Assembly: GCF_000143535.2 (NCBI RefSeq) | Contig: NC_037319.1 | Span: 682,001-746,000, forward strand | Origin: Botrytis cinerea B05.10 | Taxonomy: Eukaryota > Ascomycota > Leotiomycetes > Helotiales > Sclerotiniaceae | Direction: 5' to 3' | Length of the DNA stretch: 64,000 bases | Part shown: positions 24,608-52,941 of the stretch, one piece after another | Numbering within the stretch: position 1 is the stretch's first letter | Layout: each line of letters starts with the position of its first letter | Made by a program: the position numbers and the translations under genes | Notes under the pieces: model-generated | What the model was told of the DNA's origin: nothing | Database searches by the model: none | What the model saw: only the letters and a program-made list of their open reading frames with translations

Positions 24608-24642
<35 letters not shown>

Positions 24643-24667
24643 TTATATATTTATATATTTATATATT
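24608..24667. repeat. AT microsatellite
   Basis: A run of (TA)n followed by repeated TTTATATA units, about 60 bp, marking the left edge of the AT-rich island. Confidence 0.9.
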
Positions 24668-25144: not shown

Positions 25145-25173
25145 ATAATTTCACAAAAAATTTGCAAAGTTAT
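25145..25173. repeat. 29-bp palindrome, copy 1 (A2 LTR)
   Basis: Left arm ATAATTTCACAAA, spacer AAA, right arm TTTGCAAAGTTAT. The right arm is intact apart from one G-to-A; the left arm shows C-to-T change. Flanks AAT and ATT extend the symmetry. Confidence 0.85.
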
Positions 25174-25983
25174 ATTCCTTTTAATTCCAAGATTAATCTA
25201 TTATCCTATAATTTCTGATTGATTTATTATCAATTCGTTATAATACTATCCCCTTTTTAATCTAGCATTTGTTCCAAATATTTATATAGAATGTATTATT
25301 TCATTTGGGATATTTATTATTGTATAGTATTTTCTTATTTAATATAACTAACAACTTTTATAAATGAAAGGAAAGATTATATTTAGTTTGTTTTGTTGAA
25401 TTCTATGGTTTCGAAATATCTTTTTATTTTTTATATAAATGTTAAAGATATAAATGTATTGTTTCTTTTTCAAATTTCTTATAATACATCAAGTGTATTT
25501 ATTAAAAGTGAAAATGTGATATTTGTAGTCCTATAGAAAATGATTGGGATAGTTTGGATTATTAAAAAACCAAATTGAATAAAAAGAAGGAATATACAAT
25601 TAATATTTTTCAAAAAGTAATAACTAAAATCTTATAATTATAAAAGCAAAAACATTTCCTATTAAAATATAAATCTGAAATACTTTATTGTAATTTACAA
25701 ACTCTTAATAAATTAATAAAAGTAAAAAAGAAAAAGAGATTTGAAAAGGAAAAGATTGAAAAGAAATATATTAAAAAAGAAATAGTAAATATTAATATTA
25801 TATCTATTTTTATTGATTCTTTTTTTTTTGATTTCTTTGATTCTTTTTTGTTTGAATTGTTCAAAACGGATTTTGAGGCTTTATTAGCAGGTATAGGTAT
25901 TTCAAATGGAATGTCTATAGTTTTTTAGGGTAGTTGAAATCTTTTTTGAGTTTTTATATATTTTCTGAATATAAATAATTTAA

Positions 25984-26172
25984 TTATTTAATTAAATACT
26001 TAATCTTATTTTTAATATATTTGTAATTTAATATTATTTCGATATTGTATATAGTATTTAGATTGATTAATTCAATTTCTGTAAATAATGTATTTAATAT
26101 TTCTAATAGTATTGATTTAAATAAGAATATATAGAATATTAAATGGATATTTATTATATTTAATAATTTCAA
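25984..26172 (-). pseudogene. Chromodomain remnant of gypsy integrase (element A2)
   Basis: A 62-codon frame beginning MKLLNIINIHLIFYIFLF and ending IILNYKYIKNKIKYLIK. It corresponds to the region in gypsy polyproteins that normally reads HPVFHVSLLEP...YEVEEILDSR..KGKLKYLVKW, after many C-to-T/G-to-A changes. Its sister copy is at 34031-34219. Confidence 0.65.
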
Positions 26173-26953
26173 TTGATAATTAATTATTTCTATTATTTTA
26201 TTAATTTTGAATGATTTTAGTTTTCTATAATCAAATTTATTGTTTAGTTTTTTGATTTTAATATTTTGTTATAGCAAATAAACTTTATTTTCTTTTTTAA
26301 GTATAGGTTTTATATTATATTTTATATTATAATATATTATTGTTTTGAAAAATATGAATCTTAAATTAAAAATCAATTATTTTTAGAGATCTTTTAGTTA
26401 TTCGATTTATATTATTATTGATTTGATATTAATTTTTTATGGTATTGGGATTTTATATATTTATAAATTAAATTCAAAATTAGCTTATACTAAAGTGATT
26501 TTCGTAGTTTTTATTTCCAATATATTATATATGAATTGTATTATAAATAATAGTTCTATTCAATTATCTTATCAATAATTTATATAATATTTAAGATATA
26601 CTTCCATTATCTAATTAATCCTTTTTATTTGATTATTTATTTATAAATAAAAAGATATTAATAATTTTCTTTTAATATCTATAAATATTAATAAAGTAAT
26701 TTAGAATTTTGAAATAAAAAGTTTATTTCGATTCGAGATTATTTTATTTAATATTTTATATATATTTATTATAACCTTTAAAAATATATATATTAATTAT
26801 TCAATATTCTATATTTCCTTAAATAATATTATATATATAAATTTCATTAATCTATTTATTATATTAAATATCATATTATATTCAATTCCTATAATAGAAT
26901 TCTTTGAAAGTAATAATTTAATTATAAAATTCTATATAATAGATTTTTATAAT

Positions 26954-27291
26954 TATCACAGGAGATAGCTATATCACTTGATATCATTATAATTGAAAAT
27001 AATAAAAATAAATAGTAATATACTAGATTGATTTAAGGATTGATTAAAAAAATCAAGTCTTATATATATATCTAAAATAAGTAATAAAATCACTTGAATA
27101 GATAATAATAATCTTTTTATAAATTATAGATATAATTATTATAAGTAGAGCTCTTAATAATTAATTTAATAAAAGTGTATATATTTATAAGAAAGATTAT
27201 AATAATTAATATAACTTTATAAAAAATATACAAAGTTATAGTTATATAAGATTTATATAATATTATATAGAATATAAGTTTTTCTATAATA
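26954..27291 (+). repeat. LTR of element B, left copy
   Basis: 338 bp, matches 52409-52747 throughout with one 1-bp length difference and many transitions. The expected ends are TGTCA..TGACA: the right copy keeps CCATGACA at its end, the left copy has TATCACAGG at its start. It carries one copy of the 29-bp palindrome. Confidence 0.75.
27211..27239. repeat. 29-bp palindrome, copy 2 (left B LTR)
   Basis: Left arm ATAACTTTATAAA, spacer AAA, right arm TATACAAAGTTAT. Homologous to copy 13 in the other B LTR. Confidence 0.85.
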
Positions 27292-28931
27292 TACTCTTCA
27301 AATCAATCAAATCCGATTGATCTGTATTTTTATAAATAAATAAATGAAAATCTTTTTAATAATAGTTAAACTATAATTAATAATAAACAAATTTAAATAA
27401 ATAATCGAATTGATTTCCCTTATTTATTCTATAAATACACAAACAAAAAGAAGAAAATGATATAATATTATAAAGAAAATTTTTATTAAATGAATTATAA
27501 TATATATAAATATATATATATTTATATATAAATCCTTAATTGAATGATTTAATATCTTAAAGATTTGCTAATAAAATTGATTCCATTGATTTTGAAAATA
27601 ATCAAATATATTAATTATGAATATTGATTCGAAAGATTATTATATATAGTATTTATAATAATAATAAACTTAAATGATTTATTTCAAAAATAAAAAGTTT
27701 TTCATTTTAATAATTAATAAATAAAATAATAAGAATAAATTGATTTCTATTTAATTAATTTTGATTTTGAATAATTTCAATTAGTTTTTTTTTTATACCT
27801 TTTTTAATTAGAGATTCTGATTTTAAACAAATCATTCTTCCTTTTCTATATAAATATTTATTTGTTTTAAATAATCTTTTTTAATTATATTTAATAATAA
27901 TAATTGATTATATTAAATCTTTTAATAGAATTAATTCTTTTTATTATTTTATTTTTATTAATTCTTTACTTAGAATTCTTATATAGAATAGTATAATTAT
28001 AAATCCTTTAAATAGTTTTTATAATTCTTATATAATTTTTATTATTTATTAAATATATTCTCTTTATTTTGAAAATAGAAAATCAATTAAAATTATTTCT
28101 AGTTTTGAATTGTTTATAAAATCTGATATTCGATTGGAGAAAGTAAAAGATATTCGAAGTGTAATACTTTTTTATAATGAAGAGAATAATTAGATTATAA
28201 TTATTATTATAGATTATAAGAATCCTTTTCGTTTATTTAATTTGAGGGATATAAAGGAGTTTCTTTTTGATAAAAATAGTTTATCTTCTTTATTAAATAA
28301 TTCTTTATCTTCTTCTTTCTTTCATTTTCCTTTTCTTTATTCTAAATCGAAAAGAATGAAAGTTTGTTCCCAAGATTGTATTGAAAAAAAAAGATTGTTT
28401 GAAAATTGTTTCTTATAATCCAATAAATAAGAGTATTCAGAATAAGATATCTTATATTGAATATATTCAATCTCTTTTATTTAATTATTATAAAGATTAT
28501 AAAAAGTGTTTTAGAAGAAAAAGTGATAGTTTAATTTGATATTAGAAATATAATATTTATAAGTATTCAATTCTTTCTATTTTTTTGTAATTATTGATTA
28601 TTTGATTAATAAAGTTTTGGGATTTTGAATATATATTGATTTTTAGAAAAATAAATGATAAAAATTTTATTAATTATTTATTGAATTTTGAAAATTAATA
28701 TATCTTTTTAAAAAACAATTTCTAATAAGAAATCGATTTGTATTGTAATATCAATTATATTGATAATAGAAAAAGAGAATAAGAAGTTTATTAATTTTAA
28801 TTCTCTTTTATTATTAATACAAAGTATTTCTTTTATTCGATTTATATTATCTTTTTCTATTAAAAAAAAGTTATTATCTCCTTTTCCAATTAAAAAGCAG
28901 AAATTCATTTCGATCTTTCAATCTCCTATTA
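27292..28931. mobile_element. AT-rich interior, assigned to element B
   Basis: No protein can be read; more than 80 percent A+T by eye and stop-dense in all frames. It lies between the left B LTR and the insertion point of element A, hence assignment to B by position. Confidence 0.45.
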
Positions 28932-29506
28932 TATTACGACGGATTAGTAACAGGCTATAGAATCACCAATGTATAGGCTATAATGGTATTATAGGTCTCA
29001 ATGATTCAACTGTAGTATACTGGGGGACACTAGGTACCCAAAAAAAGCCTCAGATATGTATATAATATTAATCATAGGATATCCTAGAAACATAAGATAT
29101 AATTCCTAGGACAATAGATTTTAGGAAATATTGAATATAACTTTACAAACTTTTTGCAAAATTATATTAATAATATTTTAAAGAATTAATTCCAGAATAA
29201 AAGATAAATTAGAATATTAAGAGTTATAGAATTAATATTCTGTAATAACTAATTTAGAAACAATAATGCTTCAGAAACAATCGGCTATTCTAATTATCTA
29301 AATAAAATAAAGATTTATATAAAGGAATAGGTTTTATTATAATATAAAGCTTTATATTTAAAATAATAATTATTAATTTTATTATTATAATTATAAGAAT
29401 TATAATCAATTACAATCTTATTAAATTCCTATTTAAAATTTAATTTAAATTATTTCGAAAGATCCTTAAATACTTTTACATAACCCTAAAAATAATTCCC
29501 ATAATA
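28932..29506 (+). repeat. 5' LTR of element A
   Basis: 575 bp, begins TATTACGACGGATTAG (TGTTACG.. expected) and ends ATTCCCATAATA where the sister LTR has CTCCCGTAACA. It is more heavily mutated at its right end than the sister copy. Contains a 29-bp palindrome. Confidence 0.9.
29137..29165. repeat. 29-bp palindrome, copy 3 (5' LTR of A)
   Basis: Left arm ATAACTTTACAAA, spacer CTT, right arm TTTGCAAAATTAT; flanked by GAAT and ATTAA. Confidence 0.85.
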
Positions 29507-30820
29507 CTTTAAATATTCTTTTTATTTCAAATATCGATTCGATAATCAATTATTAATATAATATTCAAAGCTATTATTATAGATTAATTTATTAAAGATA
29601 TCAATAATATCGAAATAATCGATATCTTAAAGAAGATTACTATTAATGAAATATTTAAAATTGTTTTATTAAATAAGTATTAAAGTAGTTAATAAGAATT
29701 TAATACTTTCTTTTTATAATTTGAGATTTATTTTCAATTCAATAAAAACAAATTCACTATTAAGGAATTCAAGAATATATAGATAGTATTATATCTTTAA
29801 GATAAAATAATCAAATGGATTTAATTATATTTATACAATTATTTCGAATATAATAATAAGGATTGTATACAATTCATTTGAATAATTTTCAATAATTTTG
29901 AAGGATTTAAAATAGAGATTTATAGAATCTTTAGAAATTTTAATAAATTAAAAATAATAGAAAATAAAATCTTTAATTTTAAATAGATAAAATTAATATT
30001 AAAATATATTACAGAATTTCGAAAATATATTGAAACAATTAAATGAAATGAAATCGCTATTATAAATTATTATTATAAGGAATTCAAATCAGAAATCAGA
30101 TTAGAATTAAAAAGATTTATTGAAAATATAAATCTAAACAATCTAATTTAGAACTCTATCAAATCAAATAATCGTTTTTATAAATATTAATAAAGTTAAA
30201 GATTATATAAATCTTAAAAAAATTAAAAACAAAAGCATTATTGTAAAAATAAAAGTAAACTATATTACAATTTATAGAAATATAAAGATCTTATAGAATT
30301 AAATATTATATATTATATAAATGGAAATAATAATTTAGAAAAGAAATGAAAATGAGAAAACAATTTATATTTTGAATATAGAAAAGTAGAATATTGAATA
30401 GCAAATTGCTAAAGCAAAAAGATAAAAGGAAAAAAAAGCAATTTCAAATTTAAATTCAATAAAAACTAATTTAATATTATTTTTATAATTCTAGAAAATC
30501 TAATTAAATTCAAAAATATTGAGATTTTTATTATTAAGAAATTTCAATAATTATTAAAGGAATTATTATAAAATCAAAAGGATATAAATATAATAGATTT
30601 ATAAAAGCAAGAGTATTATAGAATCTTAATATTTTTTGTAATAGAAGAAAGTTATCAAAATAAGATAGAAATAGATTATATTATAATAAATTGGATAACT
30701 TATTATAATGAATTTTATAGAATTTATTAATTAAATAAAAAAGTAATTGAATAATTCTTTAAAAAGAAAAAAACAAAGAATTATTAGAATAATATAATAT
30801 ATAAGGATTTAACTTTTAAT

Positions 30821-30849
30821 ATAACTTTGTAAGAAATTCATAAAGTTAT
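30821..30849. repeat. 29-bp palindrome, copy 4 (interior of A)
   Basis: Left arm ATAACTTTGTAAG, spacer AAA, right arm TTCATAAAGTTAT. It is inside the element, about 1.3 kb after the LTR, so it is not an LTR-duplicated copy. Confidence 0.85.
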
Positions 30850-31639
30850 TTAGTAATTGAATATTATAGAATAAATGGAATAGATATATTATAAAATTTA
30901 AATAAATGGATATATACAATCAGTTATAATAAATTCAAAAACTATAGGAAATTTTATTGTATTAGAAATTATAAAGTATTTAAAAATATTATTTTAAATA
31001 AAATAATATTCTTATTAATTATAATTAATTAATAAATAACTAATAGGGTTTAATAAAAAGATTTTACAAAAAACAATTCTAATATAAATGAATATAATTC
31101 AATATATAAAGATTATACAGTTTGATATTATACCATTAAATCAATAATAGATTATCTTAGAAATACTATAATTAAAGATATATAATTCGAAAATAGATTG
31201 AATATAAGGAATTATAACATTTGATTAATACAAAAGCGATTATAGGGATACTAAAGGCATTTGCAAAATATAATATATATTAAGGAGAATTGAATACAAA
31301 TAATATCGGTGATATAGGATATTTAGTTCAAAATTCTTTATTAAAAGTGAAAACTAGTATATCTTCTTTACAAATGTAAAAGCTAACAATATGGTATAAA
31401 ATTGTAATTGAAGTAAAAGAAAAGTCTATGATATTAAAACAATATAAGAATTATAAATATATTTTCAAAGAATTAGGGATTTATAAGGCTTTATTGGAAT
31501 ACAAGTTATAGAATTATAAGATAATATTAAAGAAAGGTAAAATACTTATATATATTCCAATTTATTCAATATCAGTCAATAAATTAAAAAGGTTTAGAGA
31601 ATATATTGATAATAATTTAGCTAAAAAATGAATTAAGGA

Positions 31640-32146
31640 ATTTGTATTCCAAATAGCCAATCTAATTATATAGGTATTTAAAAAGAATGGATTTGATAGA
31701 TTAATTGTAAACTATAGAAAGCTTAATATATTCATTAAAAAGAATCGATATTCATTTCTATTAATTATAGAATTAAAAGATTGGTTAGGTAGAGCTATAA
31801 TATTTATTAAAATGGATTTATATAATAGTTATGATTTAATTAAAATAAAGGAAGATAAAAAATAAAATATAGGTTATACAAATACTAAGTTATATTATTT
31901 AAATTAATTAATATACTAATTATTTTTATAAGATTTATAAATAATATATTATTACAATATTTGAATATTTATTGTATATACTATTTAAATAATATTCTAA
32001 TATATTTAAATAATAAGATTCAATATATTAAAAATATTAATAATATTTTTAAAAACCTATTCAAAACAGATTTACTATATAAATTAAATAAATGTGAATT
32101 CTATATTATAAAGACAAAATTCTTGGGATTTATTGTATTAAGTTAA
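31640..32146 (+). pseudogene. Gypsy reverse transcriptase remnant (element A)
   Basis: About 31678-31865 reads KKNGFDRLIVNYRKLN, then NRYSFLLIIELKDWLGRA and IIFIKMDLYNSYDLIKIKED, which is clearly the gypsy RT stretch usually KKDGSLRLCVDYRKLN...LPLI.EL.DRLGGAKIFTKLDLR.AYNLIRIKEGDEW. At 31961-32146 CIYYLNNILIYL replaces the canonical C.VYLDDILIYS: both catalytic Asp of the YxDD box are Asn, as a G-to-A change gives. KLNKCEFYIIKTKFLGFIV follows as in the thumb region. The enzyme is dead. Confidence 0.85.
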
Positions 32147-34030
32147 AGATTCAAAATAAATAAAAACAAAATTAAAGTAATATTTGAATAAAAGCAACCA
32201 ATTATAATTAAAAAAATACAATTCTTTTTAAAATTCGTTAACTTCTATAAAAGATTTATTAAAAGTTATTTAGAGATTATTATATCCTTAATTATATTAA
32301 TTAGAAAAAATCAAAAAAGCTTCAAATAAATTGCCAAAATATAAAAGTCATTCAATACACTCAAATAAATAATAACAAAAGAATTAATATTATTAATTTT
32401 TGATTTAGAAAAAGAAATCATAATAAAAACAAACTTTTCAGATTTCATTATAAAAATAGTTCTAAGTTAACCAGGCCAAAATAGAAAATACTAATTAATT
32501 ATATTTTATTCCCGAAAACTATTATTAATTGAATTAAATTATAAAATATATAATAAAGAATTATTAATAATAATTAATATATTTAAAGAATAATAAATAT
32601 ATTTGAAAGAATCAAAATATATAATATAAATATATATAAATTATAAGAATTTAGTTTATTTTATTATAACAAAATAATTAAATAAATAATAGATTAGATG
32701 ATTGGAGATTATAATTAATTATAATTTCAGAATTTTATATATTAAAAGATTAGAAAATGTTAAAATTAATATTCTTAATTGAAAACTAAAATATTAAGAA
32801 AACAAAATATATAAATTATATATTATATTTAAGAAAGATAGCGAATTATTAATTTATAATATATTATAGTTTATAATAATATATCTATTAAAAAATAATC
32901 ACTTCAAAAAATAGATCTAATTATATTATAACAAAAATACTATTATTATATATATATATAAGATAATAGAATCAGAATTCATTATAGAAAATAATATTAT
33001 ATATTTTTATGGAAAAGTATATATTCTGAATCAAATAACTAAGGAATTTATAATAAAATAATATAGATTGCTAGTATATAAATATCAAAAAATTATAAGG
33101 ATATTTATAAAAATATAAGAAATCAATTACTTCCTACAAATGAGAATAATAATTAAAAAAATTATTAGAAATTATAATATTTATATACAAAACAAATTAT
33201 TATAATATATTTTATATAATCAATTCCAAATCTTAAATATACTTTTTTAATTATGGAAATCTATTATATAGAATTTTATAATTAAATTATTACTTTCAAA
33301 GAATTCTATTATAGAAATTGAATACGATATAATATTCAATATAATAAATAGACTAACAAAATTTATATATATAATATTATTTAAGGAAATATAAAATACT
33401 AAATAATTAATATATATATTTCTAAAAATTATAATAAGTATATATAAAATATCAAATGAAATAATCTCGAATTGAAATAAGCTTTTTACTTTGAAATTCT
33501 GAATTATTTTATTAGTATTTATAAATATTAAAAGAAAGCTATTAATATTTTTTTATTTATAAATAAATAATTAAATAAAAAGAATTAATTAGATAATAAA
33601 AATATATCTTAAATATTATATAAATTATTAATAAAATAATTGAATAGAATTATTATCTATAATACAATTTGTATATAATATATCAAAAATAGAAACTACA
33701 AAAATCATTCTAATATAAGCTAATTTTGAATTTAATTTATAAGTATATAAAATCCCAATATTATAAAAAGTTAATATCAAATCAATAATAATATAAATTG
33801 AATAATTGAAAGATTTTTAAGAATAATTGGCTTTTAATTTAAGATTTATATTTTTTAAAATAGTAGTGTATTATAATATAAAATATAATATAGAATCTAT
33901 ATTTAAAGAGGGAAATAAAGTTTATTTACTATAATAAAATATTGAAATCAAAAGATCAAATAATAAATTCGATTATAGGAAATTAGGATTATTCAAGATT
34001 GATAAGGTAATAGAAATAATTAATTATTAA

Positions 34031-34219
34031 TTGAAATTATTAGATATAATAAATATTTATTTAGTATTTTATATATTCTTATTTGAATTAGTATTATTAG
34101 AAGTATCAAATATGTTATTTACAAAAATTGAATCAGTTAATTTAAATACTATATATAATATTGAAATAATATTAGATTACAAATATGTTAAAAATAAGAT
34201 CAAATATATAATCAAATAA
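34031..34219 (+). pseudogene. Chromodomain remnant of gypsy integrase (element A)
   Basis: A 62-codon frame (MKLLDIINIYLVFYIFLFEL .. NIEIILDYKYVKNKIKYIIK in two pieces) equivalent to the integrase C-terminus and chromodomain. It is less mutated than the A2 copy (ILDYKYVKNK versus ILNYKYIKNK). Confidence 0.7.
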
Positions 34220-34940
34220 TTAAACTATTTATATTCAAAAAATATATAGGAATTTAAAAAAGATCTCAATTATTCTAAAAAGCTATAAATATTTTATTTA
34301 AAATATTTATATTTATTAATAAAATCTTAAGATTCGCTTTGAATAATTCAAATAAAAAAGAATTAAAGAAATCGAAGGAAAAAGAATTAATAAAAATAGG
34401 TATAATATTAATATTTGCTATTTCTTTTTTAATATATTCCTTTTTAATCTTTTCCTTTTTTAATCTTTCTTTTTTTTTTGTCTTTATTGGTTTATTAAAA
34501 ATTTATAAATTATAATAAAGTATTTCAAATTCATGTTTCAATAAAAAATATTTCTGTTTTTATAATTATAAGATTTTAATTATAATCTCTTTTTCTTTTT
34601 AATTCAATTTCTTTTTTTATTAGAATAAATTTTCCCAATTACTTTTAAATAGATTTTAGATATTATATTTTTTATTATTACAAATATATTCACTATATTA
34701 TAAAGAATTAGAAAGCAAAATAATACATTTATGATTAATATATTTATATAATAAATATAAAGATATTTCGAAATCTTTTTGTTTAATAAAATAAATAAAA
34801 TAGATTTATTCTTTTTTTTTATTAATATTCAAAAAAGATATAATAAAGAAAAAAAGAAACATTATAATTATTAAATATACAAAAGAAAAGATATATTAAT
34901 ATAAATGTTTGAAATAAGTATTAAACTAAAAAAAGAATAA

Positions 34941-35515
34941 TATTATAACAGATTAATAATAGGCTATAGAATTACCAATATATAGACTATAATAGTATTA
35001 TAGATCTTAATAATTCAACTACAATATACCAGAGAATACTAGGTATTTAAAAAAAACCTCAAATATATATATAATATTAATTATAGAATATTCTAGAAAT
35101 ATAAAATATAGTTTCTAGAATAATAGATTCTAGAAAACATTGAATATAACTTTACAAACTTTTTGCAAAGTTATATTAATAATATTCTAAAAGATTAGTT
35201 TCAAAATAAAAGATAAACTAGAATATTAAGAGTTATAGAATTAGTATTCTATAATAAATAGCTTAGGAATAATAATACTCCAAAAGCAACCAGCTATTCT
35301 AATTATCTAAATGAAATAAAGATTTATATAAGGAAATAGATTTTATTATAATATAAAACTTCATATTCAAAACAATAATTATTAGTTTTATTATTATAAT
35401 TATAAAAATTGCAATTAATTACAACCTTATTGAATTCCTATTTGAAATCTAGTCTAAACCACTTCGAGAGATCTCTAGACACTTCCACGTGACCCTAGAG
35501 GCAGCTCCCGTAACA
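34941..35515 (+). repeat. 3' LTR of element A
   Basis: 575 bp. Its last 60 bases keep near-normal composition (CACTTCGAGAGATCTCTAGA, CCACGTGACCCTAGAGGC, CTCCCGTAACA), in contrast to the 5' copy, showing the unmutated family sequence. Confidence 0.9.
35146..35174. repeat. 29-bp palindrome, copy 5 (3' LTR of A)
   Basis: Left arm ATAACTTTACAAA, spacer CTT, right arm TTTGCAAAGTTAT: the best preserved pair of arms in the plus orientation of the spacer CTT. Confidence 0.88.
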
Positions 35516-37575: not shown

Positions 37576-37846
37576 TGTAAAAGAGTAGAAGGTGGTAATG
37601 ATCACACAAGAAAAGCCTTCGCATATATTAAGCATAGAGTAAGTGGCTATTTGTAGTAAAATAGAGTGAACCATTATATTACAACAGCGAAGTGAGAGAG
37701 ATAATAAAAATTAGATATTCAATTTTTTAGAAGATAATTTTAAAAGATAAAAAATTCGATGATATTTTTAAATCTATAAAAAAAAAGCTATAAATATTAA
37801 ATATTAGTAGTATATAATTTTGAAGTTATATATTTTCATTTTTATA
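37576..37846 (-). repeat. LTR of element C, left copy (3' LTR)
   Basis: 271 bp. On the minus strand it ends CTACTCTTTTACA. The left half retains GC-containing sequence (CACACAAGAAAAGCCTTCGC), while its right half is more decayed than that of the other copy. Confidence 0.85.
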
Positions 37847-37926
37847 TTCCTTTTCATTTTAGTCAATTGATTATTTAATCAATTAAAATTAAAAATTTAA
37901 ATAACAATACTTTTTTTACTATAATT

Positions 37927-37955
37927 ATAATTTCATGAAAAGTTTGTGAAGTTAT
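37927..37955. repeat. 29-bp palindrome, copy 7 (interior of C)
   Basis: Left arm ATAATTTCATGAA, spacer AAG, right arm TTTGTGAAGTTAT. It is about 80 bp inside the left LTR of C. Confidence 0.85.
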
Positions 37956-37998
37956 GAAATACATTTATTGTTTTTCTTTATAATTTTGGTTGAGAATT

Positions 37999-38289
37999 TT
38001 AATCAGTAAATCTTTTATTATACCTTTCTTTAAAAATAACTTTATATATTCTTTTTAAACCTCTTAATCGTTTAAAAAGATTTCGATTATTGGAAAAACT
38101 ATTTTTTATTATATTTGTAACTTTTTCGTTTTCATCTTTTTCATTATTTAATCTTTTATTTTGTTTTGTAAATTTATATCTTCTTTGTTTTATATATTTG
38201 ATTTTTTGGGGAGAGGGGGTAGGGTTTGAGGATTGAAATAATAAAGAGGGAGTAGTATTTTTATTACTAATATTTATAAAGAATCCCAA
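37999..38289 (-). pseudogene. Open frame in element C, near its 3' end
   Basis: A 96-codon frame, Lys/Arg/Asn-rich (KQRRYKFTKQNKRLNNEKDE; later FKRLRGLKRIYKV), the longest in that part of the element. It may be the C-terminal end of pol or a later ORF. No motif is recognised. Confidence 0.3.
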
Positions 38290-40889: not shown

Positions 40890-40918
40890 ATAATTTTGCA
40901 AAAAATTTACAAAATTAC
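40890..40918. repeat. 29-bp palindrome, copy 8 (interior of C)
   Basis: Left arm ATAATTTTGCAAA, spacer AAA, right arm TTTACAAAATTAC; the last base of the right arm is changed. Confidence 0.8.
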
Positions 40919-42796
40919 AATTATAAAAAATATAAAAAATATTTTTAAAAAAAAATGCAAAGGAAAAGAAATAATGAAAAATGAAATTTAAGAGATAAAG
41001 AATCACTGAATACAAAAATATAATAATTGAATCTCAAATAAAGGGAAAATGGGAACTCTATCTATCTTTATAAATCTTTTTTAGCTTTTCCAAATTTAAA
41101 TACAAATTTCTAAACGATTTAATTATAAAAGTAATAAAAGAATATAATATAAAAAAAAGTATTCTTAATTAAAATAAAGAAACTCTCGATTTCTAATAAA
41201 GATAAACAAAATTTATTATTATTTATTATTCTATCCTACCTTAATATATAATTAATACCCTATCAACTACTTCAGTATTATCAAAAAAGTATATTATATT
41301 AATAAACTAATAACTGGGATTTCCATTACAACACAAATATTTATATTTATTAATAATATAATATTTTGATTCTTCTATATCTGATTTATTATATCCTCTA
41401 TTATCACAAAACATTAAACAATTCGCTCACTCCTTTTTGAATTCAATAATACTTCTAAAAAATCTTCAAATTCATTTTCAATAATATTTCCTATATCCTC
41501 TTCACCTCTAATTGAAATATATTCTCCCTTTCTTTTAACAAACTTCTTAAAACAAACTCTTAAATAAATTCTATCAATTGAAAATCTATTCATTTCTTTA
41601 AAAATATAAATACTTTTATTCAATAAAACCTTACTTACATAATATAAACCAAATTATCAATATACAAGCTTCCTTTCCCTAAACATATCGATTTTCAATT
41701 ATAAATCAAATTAAAAAACAATATCCCTTATAATGATTTTCTTATTAATTATATTATTATCTTTATTAAAATACAATTTCCTATCCAAATAATATTATTT
41801 TTTATATATTACTACTTCTTTTATATCCATATTATACATTTCTAATTGATAAAGATATAAAACTAAAAGATCTTTATAAAAAGTAACTTTTTCCCAATTT
41901 AAAATTCTCCATATACTATATTATATTTTTATAAATAATACTAAATGATATCCATAAATTATATAGAATGAAATCAAATTGATTGATTGATATATAATAA
42001 CCCTATCCATAAACAATATTGAATTTAAATAATACAGTTATTCGCTTTTGCTATTTATTATTTTTGCTAATCCATTAATTATAAATCTATATTTTTATTT
42101 GATTTGACTGTTTACTTTCGAATTATAGATGAAGATTTATATCTATTTAATCTTATACTTTCTCAAGAAATATTCGATATATATTTTATTTTTGGATCCT
42201 TCGTTTATAAAAACCTTATCAAAAACTGAATGCCTATAAATAATACTTCAAATAAAGGCAGTAATGGCTTACAATATTGCATTTCTCAATAACTTAACTT
42301 TAATTTAATCTAATAAATCATTTTATAAAGAAATAAGGTATTTATAGTTGTTATTCGGGGGTATATATATAATATCTAAATTGTATTTTTGCTAATAGAT
42401 ATTTATTTATATAGAGTATAAAGATTCTTTTTAAATATTAAATTATTGTTTCTAACAATTGGAATAGGATTTAATAAATCATTTAATATCTTTATATATT
42501 TTATTTCAATAATAAAGTTTATATATTTTATCAAATATATTTTCAATCCTTTTGTAATCATATACTTTATATAAATTATTGATTAATAATATTCTTTATT
42601 ATTAATCATCAATAACCTTACAATGTAATATATTATAAATCTCATTTCTATATAAATACCTTTTATATATGGAAAATCCTAAAATACACTTTTTGAATTT
42701 CAAAAATTCTTAATTTATTATACCTTCGAAATATTATAGGCTAATTAGATATTAAATAATCTTTCGATTTTTAATATTATATTCTTTATTCAATTT

Positions 42797-42825
42797 ATAA
42801 CTTTATAAAAAGTTTACGAAATTAT
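42797..42825. repeat. 29-bp palindrome, copy 9 (interior of C)
   Basis: Left arm ATAACTTTATAAA, spacer AAG, right arm TTTACGAAATTAT. Confidence 0.85.
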
Positions 42826-43864
42826 ATATAATAGAAATATCTTTTATATTATTAAATTAATTTATAATCTATTTATTAATATCTTCCTCTTTATCTTTTT
42901 TAAATATATTAGAGAATATAATTAGTCTTTTTGATAATTTGTTAATAGTAGTGTAGATTGTATCTTTAATATATTATATTTCAAAGTCAAATAGTTTAAT
43001 TTATATAATCTATTGAATAACAAAAGCTTTGAAAAGGTCTATTACTGTTCGATTTAATTAAATAATTAAGATTTTGATATTTGTTTTTAAAATAAAATAT
43101 ATTTTATATAAATCGAATTTATATTTTCGAAGAGCTTTCAATATTTCTTTATATTTCCTTTTTGTTGTATTATAGTTTTTTTCGGCGTTATTTTATAATC
43201 TATTTTTAAAGTGTGTAATAATATGTTTTCTTTTAAATTCTTATTTTAAATATGCTTTTTATTTATTAATGCTAACATTTATTTTAAGAACAATTTGTTT
43301 AATAATTATTGTATCTCTATAATCTAAAGATATCAGGGTTGGAGGTTTAATTAAGTTCTTTTTTAACAATTTTATTATTTATTTTTATTCAATTGTTTAT
43401 AAGAATTCAATATTCTTCTTGAATAAGCGATATAATGGTTCTGCTTTTTATATAAACTTTTCAATTTATATTCGATAGTATATATAGATATCTAGAAATA
43501 TTCAAACTTTTATTGTTGATTTGGGTTTTGGTTAGTCAAGAATCTTTTTGATTTTAACTTTCACAAACTTTTGTTCTTTTGATTCAATTATATAGCTTAC
43601 TATTTTCATTTCATTATAATATTATTTAGACTTTGTATTAATAGTATAGTTTATATATTCAAGATATTCAAGGGTTTTATTAATTGCTTAAATATATTTT
43701 AAAACGAATTTTCATATATCCAATATTATTTTTTTATTATTATATATTGTTTTTGGTTTTTTAATACTGATATTATTTAAAAAGGATATTATTATTATCG
43801 AAATCAAATTATTAAGAATTTTTATAATAATATAATAGAATTGAATTATTGAGTTGGTTGCTTT

Positions 43865-44062
43865 TTAGGGAAATATAATATATTGGAAAAGGTTAAGCGG
43901 GATTTGAAAAGTTATTAAGTTTTTATTTTCGAGAGTTAAAAGTATTTGATTATAATTAGAAAAGAAATCGATTAATGAAGCTATTATGTAGTTTGCAAAA
44001 TTTTCTATAAATATATTTGTATTAGGTGGTAGATTTGTATTTCGAATTATATATCGATTCAA
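43865..44062 (-). pseudogene. Gypsy reverse transcriptase remnant (element C)
   Basis: The frame YIIRNTNLPPNTNIFIENFA, then ASLIDFFSNYNQILLTLENK and NLITFQIPLNLFQYIIFP matches the gypsy RT segment that commonly reads RNTNLPP..D.F.E.FAG..I.SLLDFFSGYDQ..L...SRD.TAFQTPLGL.R...LPQG. D-to-N and G-to-N/S differences fit G-to-A decay. This is a different gypsy lineage from element A, judged by the FFSGYDQ phrase. Confidence 0.8.
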
Positions 44063-44788
44063 TTTTATTATTGTATTAATAATTCAATAGGTATTTAAGA
44101 TTTTCTTTTTTATTAAGAATCATAAATTACAATAGGGTTCATTATATAATTCAAAGATTCCTTATTTTATTCTATTTCTAAGTATAATAGATATTATTTC
44201 TATTAAAACTTTTGATATAAGGAAATCAAATGTTTGCTAGGCTTTATAGGGAATAGTTTTAATTCTTTGTAATAGGATTATATTCTTTTGTACTCATTTA
44301 GTATACATCTAATTGAATACTAAAACTCCTTTTCGATTGAGGAGATAGATTATTAGTATATCTTTTTTCAAATTCATTAAAAGATCTTTACAATCAATTG
44401 CTTTTATTCTTTTAGAAATGAGTTGATATCTTTCAGATTCTTTATTAAAATGGGATATAAGAAACTCTTTCTATTTCCCAAATGGTTTTTGATATGGATT
44501 TCTTAATTAATCGTGTTCAAATTAATCATCTCTTTCATTAAAAGGTTTTTCAGTGATATTACCTAATTGATTCGAAGGATGGATCTTTGTAGTTTTGTTT
44601 TTGTATATTATATTTATTTGTTTTATATTTCTATTTATAATATAAATATTAAACAATTCTTTAAAGGTTTGTAAGAAAACAATATGTTTTCTTTTATCTG
44701 ATTTATCTAATATATTGAAATAGAACTTTTGAAATTCAATATTAAAGGAAACATATATTCTTACAAAATACTTTGATTTACTATTATA

Positions 44789-44817
44789 ATAACTTTATAA
44801 AAAGTTTGCGAAGTTAT
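44789..44817. repeat. 29-bp palindrome, copy 10 (interior of C)
   Basis: Left arm ATAACTTTATAAA, spacer AAG, right arm TTTGCGAAGTTAT. This right arm appears unmutated and gives the likely ancestral arm. Confidence 0.88.
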
Positions 44818-47523
44818 TTAGATTAAAGGAATTGGGGGAATTACTGATATATTGTTTTTTCAATATATTAATATTTAGTTTTCTGATTATATAATTATTT
44901 AAAACTTTTGTTTTATATTTTAAATACTAATTTAAATTTCTTTATTATTATCCATAATTATAAAGTATTATATACTATTTCGATATACAAAGTTAATCTC
45001 TCCTATAATAAACTATAATATTTTTAATAATAATTTATTACAAATATTTTCTATAATATATATATTGATTATATTCGAAACTCCTTTTAATATAATATAA
45101 ATATCTTTATAAATTCCTTTAAAATTCAATAAATCTATATTGATATTTATAATGATTATCTAAACTGAGTTAATAAGTAGATTAAGTTTTCTAACTAAAA
45201 TAGAATCGATTAGATTGATTATAAATCCTAAATTCAAAATCATATTGATTGGATTTAGGTTATTAATACTAACTTTAATCTTCAAAAAGCTTTCTCTATT
45301 TTTATTTGTAATGTATATTAAATCGATATGGTTTATTTGCTTCGGGGTTTTAGGTTAAAGATTAATAGGAAATCGATTGATGGTATTAATCAAGTAACTA
45401 TTCAATTTTGAAGATATAATAGAATCGTTTATTTTAATTATCCATCTTTTCCAAATGACTGAATATTCCCTAAATATCAATTCTAAAGATATATTAATAA
45501 TTAATAAAAGAATATCTTTATTAAGCTTTTTTATATTACCAAAGGTATTTATTATAAGCTTAGGTATTATTCTCTTTTTTGATTTTTTAATCTTATTAAT
45601 AATCCTTTCATAAATAATCTCTGATTTATTAAGGTTTTGAATATTTATAGGTTTAATATCTGGTTCAGTTTTATTATAGTTAAGAGTATCTTTCTTAGGA
45701 GATATCAAATGAATATATTTAAGAATCTTTGAAGTAAGAATAGAATTCTAATTCTTCATATTTTTAATAAATATTTTATAAATCTTATTAGGGTTGTATA
45801 AAGGTTGGCTGCATTTTCTAAATTCAAAACTGATTACATTAATATATTTATTTATAATGAAATTTTCTAGATTGTTGATATTGAAAATTTCTATAATATA
45901 TATATCTTTAATTAATTATATTTGTTTTATTTTTCTTTATAATTAATTCCATTTATTTGATTTAATTTTTAAACTTATTATTTTAATAAAGGAATCTTGA
46001 ATTTTGTAATTATAAATAATAAATAAAAAATTCTCTTTTATATCCTTTAATCTTCAAAATAGTTTGTTATATTAATTATAATATATATATTTATAATCAA
46101 TATACTTTTTAAAAATAGAATAGTTCTTTTTGAAATTGTAATCTTTTTTTTTAAGATATTGATTTTAATAAAAATAATAATATCTTTTCTAAACAATATT
46201 GATATATTCTATATTATTGTTTATATTATTTTGTATATTGTTCAAGTTTAAAAAGAAATAGTATATTGATATTTGGAATTATATAGTAAAAGGGATTTTA
46301 TAATTTAAATAGAAATTAAATATTTGTATTTTTCCTTTTATTCTTTTAAAAGCTTTTTTTTATTGGGTTATTGTAAAAAAGCTTTTAAGTATTTTTATAA
46401 TTTATTTGATATTATTTGTCTTTGAGATAATAGGATTTTTAATTTGCATTTTGATTTTCTTGAATAAAATAATAGTATTAATCAACTTTTCCAAACCCAA
46501 ATCTTTTTTAGAATTGTTTATTTCGAGGATTTTAAATTGGGATTCATTGTTTGTATATTGTATTATTTATTGAAAAACTTTATTCTATTCTATTGTATTA
46601 GATTTTTTCAAATCTATTTTGAATTCAGTAATATATTTACAAACAGTTTTCTTAGGAATATTTTTCAAAAAAGTTTTAGTGATTTCGTTTTTAATTAAAA
46701 CTTTGTTTTTAATCAAATATTGAATAATTTGATTATATTGATATATAAAGTATATAAGTGTATTAATATTATCTTTCCTTTTTTGTTTATATTTCCTAAT
46801 AAAGCAATGAATATAATCTTTTGAATATATTTTCTAATGAATATTATTTATCAAATGCTTTTTGAGAAATATGGGTTTGAATTTGTATTTCCAATTCTAA
46901 TTTTTTTATTATTATTTTTTTATAATTTTGATATTCTCTTAAAGAATTCTTTTTATTTGTAATGGAATTCGAAAACGGAAATCTTCTTTATTTATTTTAT
47001 AATTATATCGAAGTTGTTTTATACCTTTGTATTATTTTATAGTATTGAAATCTTAGAATTATGGTATTCCTTTTTGTTTGAAAAGAAGCAATAATGGAGT
47101 ATTTGTTTTATTCAATTGTTTTAAAATAATAGTAAATTGTATAGTATTAATATGTTCTTTTTATAGAAATATATTAATATCTTGTTTTTATTTGATAGAT
47201 TTGGTTTTTTGTTGCTCCTTTATTTGTTAAAAGAGTGGTTCTTTTTTTTTTAGAGTTTCAGGGGTGTTTTTTAATTTTTGGGAGTTGAATGTGGTAATTG
47301 AATTTAATATATTGAAAGTTGAATTAAAAATCAAATCTCTTTTTTATATTTGATTAACTTCTTCTTTGAATTTGATAAATTCCATATTATTTGAAATGAT
47401 TTCTTTTCCTTTTTTTTTTAATATTTTTATTTTCAATTAATTATTATAGATTACAATTATAAAAGGATAGCAAGATTTTATATTATTATTTTTATATAAC
47501 TTTAAAGTCTTTTATTCTTTTTT

Positions 47524-47552
47524 ATAATTTTGTAAAAAGTTTGTGAAGTTAT
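47524..47552. repeat. 29-bp palindrome, copy 11 (interior of C)
   Basis: Left arm ATAATTTTGTAAA, spacer AAG, right arm TTTGTGAAGTTAT. Confidence 0.85.
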
Positions 47553-48260
47553 AAAAAGATTTATTGTATTTATAATAATCAATATTTCATTATTTTTTGA
47601 TATATTAATATTAAACTTTTTCTAACTTGTAATCTTTTACTTTTTCGAATTTTCGAAATAGTTTTTAATTAAAAAAGTATCTTTATTCTTTGTTTCCTTT
47701 TTATTATTGGGTAAAAGAGAATTCACTTTTGTATTGTTAATAAATATTTATTAAATGGTTATTAGTTCATCTTTATTCTAATTATATATAATCAAAACTT
47801 TATAGAAATTTTCTAATCTTGTAAACTTTTGAATTTTCATTTTATTTATTCTGGTGTCTTTTTGTTTATATAATTTATAAATTGAAAAAGCAAAGATTCT
47901 CTTTTGATTTCTAAGTGATATTGGTATTTTTGTAGAAGATTATTTTGTTTGAGATAGTTATAATATATTTTTTTGATACTATAGTAGATATGGATATAAT
48001 AATAAAATTTTTCTATTTCTTTTTATTTTTATATTAAGAAGTTATATATCGATTTTGAATTTTTAGGAAAATAATATTTCTTTTATTATAATAATTATAA
48101 ATTGCAATATTATATTATTTATAGGTATTCCGGTAATCCCGTTATTTCAATTTATTTATTGTATTCAATAATTATTTACTTTTTGAAGATAATCCAAAAG
48201 CTTAGATTTATATATAGTTATTTGATTTTTCAATATTTTCTTTCCTGTGTAAATCACTAA

Positions 48261-48531
48261 TATAAAAGAATAAAAGGTAATAATGGTTATACAAAAAAAG
48301 CCTTTATATATACCAAACATAAAGTAAATGGCTATTTATAGTAAAATGGGGTGAACTGTTATATCGCAATAGTGAGGTGAGGGAGATGGTAAGAGTTAAG
48401 CATTCAATTCTTTAGGAGACAATTTTAGAAGGTAGAAAATTCGATGATATTTTTAGGTCTATAGAAGAGAAGCTATAAATACTAAACGTTGGTAGCACGT
48501 GACCCTGAAGTCACGTGTTTTCACTCTCACA
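48261..48531 (-). repeat. LTR of element C, right copy (5' LTR)
   Basis: 271 bp. On the minus strand it starts TGTGAGAGTGAAAACACG. Its right end is nearly unmutated and holds an inverted repeat CACGTGAC-CCTGAA-GTCACGTG (48496-48517) with two E-box-type hexamers. Confidence 0.85.
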
Positions 48532-51500
48532 TTATTTCCTTTTATAATTAAATAATTAAATTAAAATGTTTTATAAAAATCTTTTATTTTTGAATTACTT
48601 TTATTCGATATATTCATAATTAATATTTTAATAAATATTTTATTTAATAATTTTAAAACTTGTTTTTATAAATATAAATATTAATATATATTATATTAAT
48701 AAATTAGAGAATAATCTATTTAAGGATTATCTTAATTGAAATCGAATATTTAATATTTTAAAGAATTTAAAATTAATTTTAATATTTCGATTTTTATTAT
48801 TGTTTGTTTTTTAAATAATTAATTAAAAAGTAATAAAAATTAATCCTTTTTAAATTAATCGATTATTTATATTAAATTTAATAACCTTAATAATAAAATT
48901 ACTTCTTCAATTAAATAAAAATCTGAATTATTAATAAAATGATTTTTTATATTACTAATATATTCTTTATAAATTATATCTATTATATAACCAATTATTT
49001 TATAATTTATATTATCGATTTATTCTTAAATAATTATTAATTATATAATAAAAATAGAATATATAGCCTTCTTTATATAATCATAATCAAAATATTCATT
49101 ATATAATAGGTTTTCTATATCAAAAACCTCTTCTAATTATAGATTCTATAATATAAACCTATTATAACAATTTATAAGTTTATTTCTATCCTTTAAATTC
49201 ACCCTTAAATCCTATTTATATATAAATATATTTGAAATATATATAATAAAAATATTTAATATTATTAATATTTCATTTTATAAAATAATTATATTATATT
49301 TATTTTTAATAATTATTTCTTTTATATTCAAATATTTTTAAATATTAAATTGTTATATATATTCTTGAAGTTTTTATTTAATAAAAATATTAATAATATA
49401 ATTATTAAAATTTATTTTATATATTCTTTTTTTATTAAATATAATATTATAAATAATAATGATTTATTTGAGTTTTGATATTTATATATAAAAGATTGAA
49501 GATTTTAATATATATCTAATTAAATAATTAATATATATTTTTAAATTAGTTTTATATATTTTTTTATTAATTTCTAATTCCCTTTTTTTATTCAATAAAT
49601 AAATTCTGTATTTGTATTAATATATATTATTTCAATTTGATTATAAATTATTAATTAAATAATCGATTTCCAAATTGAATATAATTTTATAAAAAGTTTG
49701 TAAAATTATAATTAATTAATAATAATTCTGAAATTATAATTTCAATATTTTATTAAAAGATTTGAATAAATATATTTTATAAAGGTTGATATTGTATAAA
49801 TATATTATTATTTGTATTATTTCTATTTATAATTAATTAGAAAGTTTTATAAAAATATATATTTTAATTTATTTTATAATTATCTTTTATTTTATTTATT
49901 TTAATTCGTTATTTGATTTGTATATATTTAATAATAATAGTTTTAATTCTATTTCTTTTTATTTTATTTAATTTTCGAATATAATATTATTTATAATTCT
50001 AATAATTAAGATATTATTATTTTGTTTAATATATATAATTAATAAATTATATTTATATAATATTTAAGCAAAAAAGCTTTGAATTGTATTAAATATTTTA
50101 AAATAGATTTTTTAATATAATAGAAATGAAAATATTTTATTATTATATATTTCTTTGATTATTAAAAATCAAAATAATTTTATATAGTTTTATAGAAAAT
50201 CAAATAAATCCTATTAGATTTTATAAAAGAAATAGAATAATTATTTTTTATTAAATAATTATAATATAATTTGTTTTATATATATATATATATAATCAAT
50301 ATAGTTTTTTTTAATAATTCTTTTAATCTTTATATTTTTTATAGCAAATATTAAATATTTAAATATCTTTTTTTTTAAATATTTTAATTTTTTATATTAT
50401 AATTTTATTAAATTCTTTTAAGATTTCAAAAGATTATATAATTTGTAAAATAATTTATTGATTTTTTTATTAATAATTAAGTATATTAGAATTGAGGGAT
50501 TTATTAGGATATTTATAAGGGATTAAGAGTAAAATGAGAATGGTTTATATTTTAAAAATAAGAAATTATTTTTATAAATGTATTAAATAATAATAGAATT
50601 ATTATTCAATATTTTATATTGAAAAGTTGAATTCATTTTTAAAAATTATAAATTAGTTTTTTTCAATTTAATTTTTAAAATTATATTAATATAGAATTTA
50701 AAAATATATATAATATTATTTAATATTAGATTTTCATTTGATTTATTATTTGAATGTATTATAATTCTTTTAATTATTTAAATATCTTTTTTAATAATTG
50801 ATATATAAATTGTTTCAGATTCGATATAATCTAAAAAGGGAAATGGAATATATTCTTATTTATTAAGTAGTGAAATATTATTAATCAAATATATAATATT
50901 ATTTATATTAAAAACAATATATTGAATAAATAAATAAGAAATAGATTCTATTATATTATAAATATCTTTTTCCAATTAATTTTGAATAAGATATATATTG
51001 AAATATATTTCTAAATCAATTAAATTAATTAAAAAGATAATTATTAATAATAGAATTCAATTTTTATTCTCTTATATTTTATATATAAAATTCTATCTTT
51101 TGTTTTTAATTCGATATTTAATATTATTATATTCTTTTATTAATAGATTTAATATTTTAAATGATTCGATTTTATTTATAAATATATATTATAATATTTT
51201 GTAATTCTTTATGAAATATTTAAAATCGGATTTATTGTTTTTCTAATTCATTTCAATTTTGTATAAATATTTATAAGAATTTAAATATTATTTATAATTT
51301 TTCTTTTTATTTTTAAATTTATATTAATTAATAATTTGATTTGAAGATTTATTAATAAAAAAATTAAATATTAAAAAGATATTTTTTCTTTTAAATAATA
51401 ATAAATCTTAATAAATTAAATTATTAAAGATATCTTTATATTACTTCAAAAAGTAATTCAAAAGATTTAATTAATTATTAATTTCGATTTAAATAAATAT

Positions 51501-52408
51501 TATATTAAATTAAATAAAAAATATACAAATTCCTATAATCTATAAGAAATTAATTAATATAAAATTATTATTAATTTCAATATAATATGCTTTTATATTA
51601 ATATAAGCCTTAATCCAATTATTATACTATTTTACAAAATCACTTTTATTTAAAACTATTTGTTAAAAAACATTACAATATTCTTATATTATTACTAACT
51701 TTACTATAATCAATATAAATACAAGCTTATTATATAACTTAAAAATAATTATTCTAAATAATAAAGCAATAGAATTGTCATTCTCAATAATGATTTCCAT
51801 AAAATAGAATGAATCCACTATTTCAATAATCCATTAATACACATTCTAATAGAACTTATACATAAAATTGTATATATCTCTCTTGCTTCAATATTCTCTT
51901 TGAAATACAAAATATTCTATATAAATATCTTGAAATATATAAGAAGATAATATAAAAAGGAATTACATTTTCTTATCTCCCTTATTATCCTTTAAATAAA
52001 CTTTGTAATATTCGAAATTTCAATTATATTTTTCAATATTTATTATATTATTTCTTTTAATAAATTCAGAAATCTTTATAAATTATAATAGATTTTTAAT
52101 TAATCAATTATTCATATAATCTAAATTTATTCTAATAAAATCTTTATTATTTTCCAAAATGAATTCAGAAATAAATAGGATAATCTTCTTTCTAATAAAT
52201 TTAATATTTTTTCAAATTCTTTTAAATATATAAAGATATTATAATTGAAGGAATTATTTTATTTAATATTTATAAATAATTAAATAAATCAAATTTATAA
52301 AGTCTTTTAATATAATAATTTATAAAATATAAAAAATAAAAATAAAGATAATAATATCAAAAGATATATAGATATTATACAATCTTAAATACTTATCGAA
52401 TTCATAAT
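48532..52408. mobile_element. AT-rich interior, assigned to element B
   Basis: Stop-dense in every frame. It contains a 29-bp palindrome at 49681-49709. Lies between element C and the right B LTR, so it belongs to B by position. Confidence 0.4.
49681..49709. repeat. 29-bp palindrome, copy 12 (interior of B)
   Basis: Left arm ATAATTTTATAAA, spacer AAG, right arm TTTGTAAAATTAT. Confidence 0.85.
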
Positions 52409-52747
52409 TATTACAAAAGATAGCTATATTATTTAATATAATTATAATTGGGAATAATAAAAATAAATAATAATATACTAAATTGACTTAAAGATTAATT
52501 AAAAAGATTAAGTTTTATATATATATTTAAAATAAATAATAGAATTATCTAAATAAATAATAATAATCTCTTTATAAATTATAAATATAATTATTATAAA
52601 TAGAGCTTTTAATAATTAATTTTAATAAAAATATATACATTTATAAGAAAGATTATAATAATCAATATAATTTTGTAAGAAGTATATGAAGTTATAGTCA
52701 CATGAGATTCACATAATATTACACGGGATATAGGTTTTTCCATGACA
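52409..52747 (+). repeat. LTR of element B, right copy
   Basis: 339 bp. Its right third is much less mutated (GTCACATGAGATTCACA, TTACACGGGATATAGG, TTTTTCCATGACA). No 5-bp duplication flanks the B pair: ATAAT precedes the left copy and TCTAT follows the right copy. Confidence 0.75.
52667..52695. repeat. 29-bp palindrome, copy 13 (right B LTR)
   Basis: Left arm ATAATTTTGTAAG, spacer AAG, right arm TATATGAAGTTAT. Confidence 0.82.
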
Positions 52748-52941
52748 TCTATTATATACTCAAGTTATATAAATTCCAATATTTTAGCTTATCATTCTAT
52801 CCCTGAAATTAGTTCTTTAAAATATTTCTAATAACTAAATATAATTTTGCAAGAAATTTGCAAAGTTATATTTCTTTTAATTTCAAGATTGATCTATTGT
52901 CCCGTGACTTCTGATTGACCTGTTATCAATCCGTTGTAACA
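52748..52941 (-). repeat. LTR fragment of the A2 family, lightly mutated
   Basis: Matches 25052-25245 along its length, e.g. GAAATTAGTTCT, TTTCTTTTAATTTCAAGATTG and the end CAATCCGTTGTAACA. It begins exactly where the B LTR stops. After it comes TTTTT, and TTTTT also precedes the other A2 LTR at 24760-24764, a possible but low-complexity target duplication of the outermost element. Confidence 0.7.
52841..52869. repeat. 29-bp palindrome, copy 14 (A2-type LTR fragment)
   Basis: Left arm ATAATTTTGCAAG, spacer AAA, right arm TTTGCAAAGTTAT. Homologous to copy 1. Only 145 bp separate it from copy 13. Confidence 0.85.

Follow-up and report, generated by a model that had tools for sequence, protein, structure and literature searches.

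A short symmetric sequence unit carried by gypsy and copia retroelements of Botrytis cinerea

Introduction

Why does one short palindrome of fixed length recur in different retroelements? The question is raised by a 64,000-nucleotide stretch of the Botrytis cinerea B05.10 genome, hereafter the window (contig 10, NC_037319.1, 682001–746000; positions below are counted from its first letter). An initial annotation of this sequence described 14 palindromes, each made of two 13-bp arms and a 3-bp spacer, which lie in an AT-rich island (~24.7–53 kb) formed by a nest of mutated retroelements within normal DNA. Our leading, still tentative, reading is that a symmetric unit passed by copying from one retroelement to another and was retained as a putative binding site of a dimeric protein. 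Support for the copying is good, whereas retention as a protein site is what we infer from the form and placement of the unit, and a selfish mini-repeat of no use to its carriers is nearly as likely.

Results

The palindrome is a defined sequence unit

All 14 palindromes are present at the positions first described, with arms that pair at 8 to 12 of 13 positions. A degenerate pattern allowing up to three mismatches matches the window at these 14 places and nowhere else (28 strand matches, compared with 0.04 in dinucleotide shuffles of the window). It has no match in the 34 kb of normal flank, which the initial annotation had also reported as free of copies. The comparison with composition-matched shuffles, set beforehand as a test, gave the same outcome: shuffling the AT-rich island yielded no match at up to one mismatch in 30 trials, against 14 observed. 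Unspecific 13-3-13 palindromes with at least 10 of 13 positions paired are frequent by chance in the island (165 observed, 124 in shuffles); it is therefore the common sequence, not the palindromic form, that makes up the signal.

The copies are listed below without strand; family names (GypA, GypB, CopC, CopD, CopE) were assigned by letter in this analysis, and F1 and F2 are subfamilies of GypA long terminal repeats (LTRs). ORF denotes an open reading frame.

25145..25173, copy 1, U3 of GypA LTR, F2 subfamily
27211..27239, copy 2, LTR of CopC copia fragment
29137..29165, copy 3, U3 of GypA LTR, F1 subfamily
30821..30849, copy 4, GypA coding region, linker between gag zinc knuckle and protease
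35146..35174, copy 5, U3 of the other LTR of the GypA element holding copy 3
35869..35897, copy 6, CopC fragment, just downstream of the pol stop codon position
37927..37955, copy 7, GypB, between ORF3 and 3' LTR
40890..40918, copy 8, GypB, just upstream of the ORF3 start
42797..42825, copy 9, GypB coding region, linker between RNase H and integrase zinc-binding domain
44789..44817, copy 10, GypB pol ORF start, between protease and reverse transcriptase
47524..47552, copy 11, GypB 5' untranslated region upstream of gag
49681..49709, copy 12, CopC coding region, between integrase and SH3-like domain
52667..52695, copy 13, LTR of CopC copia fragment
52841..52869, copy 14, U3 of GypA LTR fragment, F2 subfamily

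The usual form is TAACTTYGCRARAAGTTYGCRAAGTTA, a symmetric unit of about 27–31 bp that normally has a pyrimidine–purine (YR) step on either side. Across 13 contexts (the F1 LTR was omitted, being homologous to the F2 LTR), 20 positions of the 27-bp core never vary. Of the seven that do, four fall on the Y or R of a CpG step and two within or next to the spacer; the last is a T-to-G change confined to the CopC LTR. The symmetry extends one step further outward, with Y in 13/13 and R in 12/13 contexts on each side, to give 31 bp with degenerate ends. The flanking YR dinucleotides differ within most single sites of these contexts, which is unlike a simple target duplication. Exact matching across the genome retrieved about 50 sites with a 3-bp spacer among the matches listed, one apparently chance match with spacers of 4–30, and no match with spacers of 0–2 (12-bp arms). 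The unit thus has the two-fold symmetric sequence and the fixed 3-bp spacer of a dimeric binding site.

The unit occupies 14 contexts in five retroelement families

We extended the degenerate search, as the initial annotation had proposed, to the whole genome (42,630,066 bp, 18 contigs). At up to two mismatches it gave 380 matches in the forward and 382 in the reverse direction; most sites are matched on both strands, which leaves ~380 sites. The reversed-pattern control gave 2 forward matches and 1 reverse match; a strict pattern located 70 intact, unmutated sites. To assign contexts, the palindrome and four bases on each side were masked and the flanks were compared with 14 reference contexts. 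This was done for 111 distinct genomic sites (up to two mismatches in the 27-mer) of the ~380, a sample that includes the 14 references and is enriched for known families, some loci having been fetched by family homology.

All 111 sites (97/97 excluding the references) could be assigned to the 14 contexts, which belong to five LTR-retroelement families, two gypsy and three copia, with 1 to 5 contexts per family. The same unit therefore stands in 14 different flanks once it is masked, in the U3 of LTRs, in untranslated gaps and in linkers between polyprotein domains. The fixed spacer, and flanks that sort into separate contexts, bear out the proposal that different elements share a defined unit of constant length. 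The window itself holds ten contexts in three families (GypA, CopC, GypB), so that the multiple contexts first suggested are real and their number is ten, not about eleven. By sequence comparison the LTR positions of the two GypA subfamilies are homologous; the same may hold for the after-pol positions of CopC and CopE.

These results bear on a further explanation, namely chance palindromes of AT-rich DNA altered by repeat-induced point mutation (RIP), or descent of all copies from one ancestral segment. Loose 13-3-13 palindromes are indeed common here, and the homologous or possibly homologous positions just named would suit descent. The motif is nevertheless absent from shuffles, intact copies stand in unmutated elements, and the long flanking homology that a single ancestral segment implies gives way to separate flanks on masking; we regard this explanation as refuted and scarcely credible. 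Point mutation would hardly produce the same 27-bp word a dozen times over, so the unit was in all likelihood copied as such.

None of the 111 sites examined, of ~380, lies outside the five families, which gives no support to a mobile repeat able to land anywhere. With 14 matches in distinct element sequence that totals a few tens of kb (our own estimate), random landing would lead us to expect thousands across 42 Mb, and none was found. Isolated arms are also at chance level: CpG-intact arms followed by G or T number 8 against 16 in the reversed control, and three of the eight are GTT-spacer palindromes of CopE. Terminal inverted repeats of a DNA transposon are likewise unsupported, given these arms and the single chance-like match at spacers 4–30, within a test limited to such spacers and to CpG-intact arms with G or T as the next base. 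Copying among retroelements only, as far as examined, points to the retroelement replication cycle or to selection acting there.

Carrier families

The window elements that hold the 14 copies are as follows.

24764..26919, minus coding strand, GypA fragment, F2 subfamily, heavily mutated
26907..28930, minus strand, CopC copia fragment, 3' part with LTR
28928..35515, plus coding strand, GypA near full-length with F1 LTRs, heavily mutated
35563..37268, minus strand, CopC copia fragment
37576..48533, minus strand, GypB gypsy element, LTRs 37576–37838 and 48260–48533 without palindrome, five palindromes between them
49270..52747, minus strand, CopC copia fragment, LTR and integrase part
52750..52954, minus coding strand, GypA LTR fragment, F2 subfamily

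A TA-rich simple repeat (24608–24668) marks the left border of the AT-rich island.

GypA, probably a Boty-type element, is a gypsy element that encodes gag, protease, reverse transcriptase (RT), RNase H, integrase and chromodomain in a single ORF, and carries palindromes in the U3 of both LTRs (F1, F2) and in the stretch that links the zinc knuckle to the protease. In GypB, the other gypsy element, the LTRs are 273 bp long and lack the palindrome; gag and protease share one ORF, pol has its own, and an additional ORF3 encodes 963 residues. Four intact copies (contigs 3, 13, 14 and 16) each have five palindromes with the same spacing (2963, 1925, 1992 and 2729 bp). These lie 136 bp upstream of gag, at the pol start, in the RNase H–integrase linker, and on either side of ORF3 (~20 bp before it and ~23 bp after it). 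The window sites from 37927 to 47524 are these five positions in one mutated copy, and two copies on contig 1 show four palindromes among the matches listed. The RNase H–integrase palindrome is present in 16/16 copies retrieved with a query that included it. Two GypB palindromes (L064 1971–2022 and L065 350–402) are alike over ~22 bp of left flank, in a 53-bp alignment at 85%, possibly a trace of one having been copied from the other.

The copia element CopC carries the palindrome in each of its LTRs, in the stretch from integrase to the SH3-like domain, and 13 bp past the pol stop codon. One copy (L033 ~1440–1500) ends ~12 bp past its 3' palindrome in sequence with GGTGGTCC/GTGGTCCG words, which we take to resemble a Fot1/pogo transposon end. 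CopD, a copia element named as similar to an integrase in B. cinerea T4, has one palindrome in its integrase–RT stretch; a sequence variant of it accounts for at least eight sites among the matches listed, five of which were read. A tblastn search with CopC pol identified CopE (24% identity, E 1.5e-31), a degraded and AT-rich copia element whose two palindromes, mostly ~4.2 kb apart, are present in 4/4 and 5/5 copies. Sites within an element are ~1.7–4.4 kb apart, and we set aside regular spacing as a signal. Presence is near-fixed in the contexts sampled, the samples leaning toward palindrome carriers.

Copies in coding regions do not share one peptide

Five contexts lie in open frames: GypA gag–protease, GypB pol start, GypB RNase H–integrase, CopC integrase–SH3 and CopD integrase–RT. 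One frame of the unit (T-S-Q/R...) is used by GypA, CopC and CopD and another (N-F-A-N-F-S...) by GypB, the third frame having a stop; the GypB pol-start reading was seen in the mutated copy L040 and follows for the intact copy from ORF coordinates. Since two frames are used across the five contexts, no single peptide is conserved.

An exact palindrome-coded peptide occurs in 2 of 178 homologous proteins, P0133 from B. cinerea T4 and P0001, whose searched region is 98% identical to GypA, and two further homologues match it only with two of eight residues different. A blastp search with the CopC linker gave no match in the same set of homologous proteins. The coding copies are located in linkers or variable stretches, as illustrated by the GypB RNase H–integrase palindrome, which falls in a linker of variable length among homologues (39 of 103 compared).

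At the GypA gag–protease site, the palindrome is present in 12/12 copies read, of 40 matches, and palindrome residues are lacking from five Monilinia fructigena homologues, three of them aligned over the whole region (P0002–P0004, 69–74% identity) and two over ~70% of it (P0005, P0007). The linker of P0002–P0004 is 11 residues shorter with the same V-T-Q-Q-L-N ending, a 33-bp gap that also takes in differences of a diverged linker. A Sclerotinia homologue (P0006) has a different long linker, also without palindrome residues. The Monilinia homologues indicate that the unit was gained or lost at this site.

Such placements would be expected of a selfish mini-repeat, a hairpin unit copied into retroelement RNA or complementary DNA (for example by template switching in the particle) and then amplified, with insertions surviving in tolerant places. 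This reading, nearly as likely as the dimeric-protein site, is consistent with the linker positions of the coding copies and, weakly, with the last two residues of the unit, V-T, being present in Monilinia too, as if joined at a short match. Copying within the replication cycle would also predict sites in retroelements only, in keeping with 14 contexts there and none found elsewhere. Identical words in long-diverged families, by contrast, would call for constraint or for spread in very recent times. Also against a selfish repeat, no empty site in which one flank directly adjoins the other was seen among the sites compared. The comparison of copies with and without the palindrome, also suggested at the outset, yielded some GypA LTRs lacking it and no clean empty site flanked by a target duplication.

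Orientation and predicted hairpins

In GypA and CopC the unit points either way with respect to the coding strand; all five GypB copies share one orientation. Mixed orientation is as expected for a site that acts as DNA.

A length of 27–31 bp, near-perfect symmetry and an asymmetric centre are in keeping with tyrosine-recombinase sites. The unit could accordingly be read as such a site (about 10-7-10 or 12-7-12) that resolves or shuffles elements, a view with which its length, symmetry and centre and the uniform GypB orientation agree. The mixed orientation in the other two families does not, and no recombinase gene or recombination product was seen at the palindromes, although neither was searched for systematically. 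Exact patterns also found no match in prokaryote genomes or viral contigs, which speaks against a bacterial or viral origin as well. We hold a recombinase site to be very unlikely. The initial annotation had pointed to the first nine arm bases, which we take to equal those of loxP; the likeness gains no support, as the spacer is 3 bp here and 8 bp in loxP, and no recombinase is linked to the unit.

Single-strand folding predicts a hairpin of ~10–13 pairs (DNA parameters) in 5/5 palindromes tested, one of them weakly (5 of 200 shuffles fold equally well), as both an RNA signal and a selfish hairpin unit would have it. A signal for packaging, dimerisation or processing has precedent in retroelements, such as the CHS of GalEa copia, as far as the part of that source consulted describes it (PMC5445492). 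One inner arm position is unpaired in the F1 LTR and F2 gag–protease copies, the orientation varies, and the unit is found anywhere from U3 to mid-pol, unlike a signal present once per genome. An RNA hairpin signal is in our view quite unlikely.

Conservation in U3 and decay in a dead copy

Inner stretches compared between F1 and F2 GypA elements are 93–97% alike and R-U5 is nearly identical, while U3 shows indels and substitutions on both sides of a palindrome whose core differs at 1 of 27 positions. Among 14 distinct GypA LTRs, 26 of the 27 core columns are invariant. Comparison windows in the same LTRs have 0–13/27 invariant columns when they start 42–177 bases to the left and 0–9/27 from 39 bases to the right (where mean column agreement is still mostly ~0.9, few rows being F2), and those in R-U5 have 18–26/27. 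The F1-type LTR carries the palindrome in 40 of 41 matches, 39 judged by place in the strict-pattern list and one read, in a search whose query contained the palindrome and in which 40 of 144 candidates were scored. One of the 41 matches, L085, has a C-to-T change in the palindrome. Retention in U3 between F1 and F2 would be unexpected of a selfish repeat without use.

Cis-regulatory binding sites occur in the U3 of LTRs, and the Botrytis unit resembles them in its position and in a symmetric sequence kept while much of U3 changes. It differs in being found up to five times per element, also in coding regions, and in both gypsy and copia. Together, symmetry, fixed spacer, indifference to orientation and frame, and U3 position suggest a site for a dimeric DNA-binding protein. 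On this reading the unit would have been copied from element to element and kept where harmless, in U3, untranslated gaps and domain linkers. It would act as double-stranded DNA, bound by a dimer with one subunit per arm, and the putative binder, host- or element-encoded, would affect expression or replication of the element, a role that would stop once the element dies.

Several observations weigh against the dimeric-protein site, the strongest being a GypA subfamily that multiplied without the U3 copy, together with decay in a dead element. This third subfamily, F6, comprises seven elements in which R-U5 is 97% alike and the whole U3 has been exchanged; the palindrome is missing from U3 in 4/4 LTRs read and kept at gag–protease in 7/7. 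As the four LTRs are identical and lack the U3 palindrome, the U3 copy is not essential for transposition.

Decay was followed by piecewise comparison of the mutated window GypB with an intact copy, counting C-to-T type changes. CpG was changed at 21/34 sites in the five palindromes and 599/950 outside, CpA at 7/12 and 1002/1467, and CpT at 6/15 and 769/1461. The palindrome is neither protected nor maintained in the one dead GypB copy compared, where rates inside and outside are similar. Any use would then serve the living element, and the decay speaks against a host-level use. Outside the palindromes of this copy (37576–48531), RIP-like mutation affects all C contexts and is not confined to CpA (CpA 68%, CpG 63%, CpC 60%, CpT 53%).

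Further points go the same way. The LTRs were fetched by the palindrome pattern, which biases core conservation upwards, and the near-identity of R and U5 between F1 and F2 means that U3 may turn over by exchange, which weakens the footprint. One old GypA LTR (L086, contig 13, 52366–52648), ~75 bases from another GypA LTR with the palindrome, has unrelated sequence of about the same length in its place. Finally, no binding protein was identified. The candidate examined, GypB ORF3 (L064 2043–4934, minus strand), is open and lies downstream of pol. We rejected it as binder, since it has no Pfam match above cut-off, no NCBIfam match, no PDB sequence match of note and no zinc-finger pattern.

The exchanged F6 U3 (L099–L102; L099 ~141–600) contains repeated CTATCC/GGATAG words and a perfect 22-bp palindrome of its own, confined to F6 LTRs (14 sites). 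A palindrome-for-palindrome swap was dismissed because the 22-bp palindrome is found nowhere else; it behaves as expected of an ordinary LTR palindrome and is a useful contrast. A heat-shock element, presumably recognisable by TTC/GAA units in the arms, was also considered and dropped because many intact arms lack them.

Discussion

Spreading short palindromes are known from bacteria, also within genes, and from organelles, as are regulatory sites in LTRs. Yeast GC clusters and Neurospora PstI palindromes are organelle examples of selfish palindromic repeats. As described in the consulted part of PMC10969869, Rickettsia palindromic elements (RPE) are palindromic repeats tolerated in many unrelated genes, often in frame, which is comparable to the Botrytis unit. 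They differ from it in being ~150 bp long, bacterial, located in host genes and encoding a conserved peptide, whereas the Botrytis unit is 27–31 bp, fungal, seen so far in retroelements only and read in two frames; it has neither the length nor the conserved encoded peptide of an RPE. The selfish palindromes of Volvox organelles, to the extent that PMC2670323 was covered, are similarly very short and dispersed, with an affinity for selfish elements such as introns. Those of the mitochondrion are nearly all intergenic or intronic, in contrast to a chromosomal unit of one fixed sequence in LTR retroelements, genes included. The GalEa CHS hairpin is likewise a palindromic motif conserved in fungal retrotransposons (PMC5445492, same part), but it is a 9-bp palindrome at the inner edge of the 5' LTR in one clade. 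The Botrytis unit, with 27–31 bp and several positions in two superfamilies, is not a 9-bp palindrome beside the 5' LTR.

The LTR families of B05.10 have been described by Porquier et al. 2021 (PMC8365987), whose main text, in the part covered here, contains no mention of "palindrom", hairpin or inverted repeat. Titles and abstracts searched in the open-licence literature gave no description of the palindromic unit.

One 27–31-bp word in gypsy and copia elements, repeated within an element and read in frame, would be either a hyper-repeat that rides on retroelements or a common control site. A bolder picture, which we regard as rather doubtful, is a 31-bp sign common to the two superfamilies that hops during replication, spares reading frames and allows one DNA-binding protein to control unrelated elements. 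According to the same part of PMC8365987, B. cinerea retrotransposons are sources of small RNAs linked to disease. Given this link, and GypA being probably Boty, the control of these retrotransposons is of interest. Either reading would open to testing the way in which very short DNA units pass among retroelements, and what links the retroelements within a genome.

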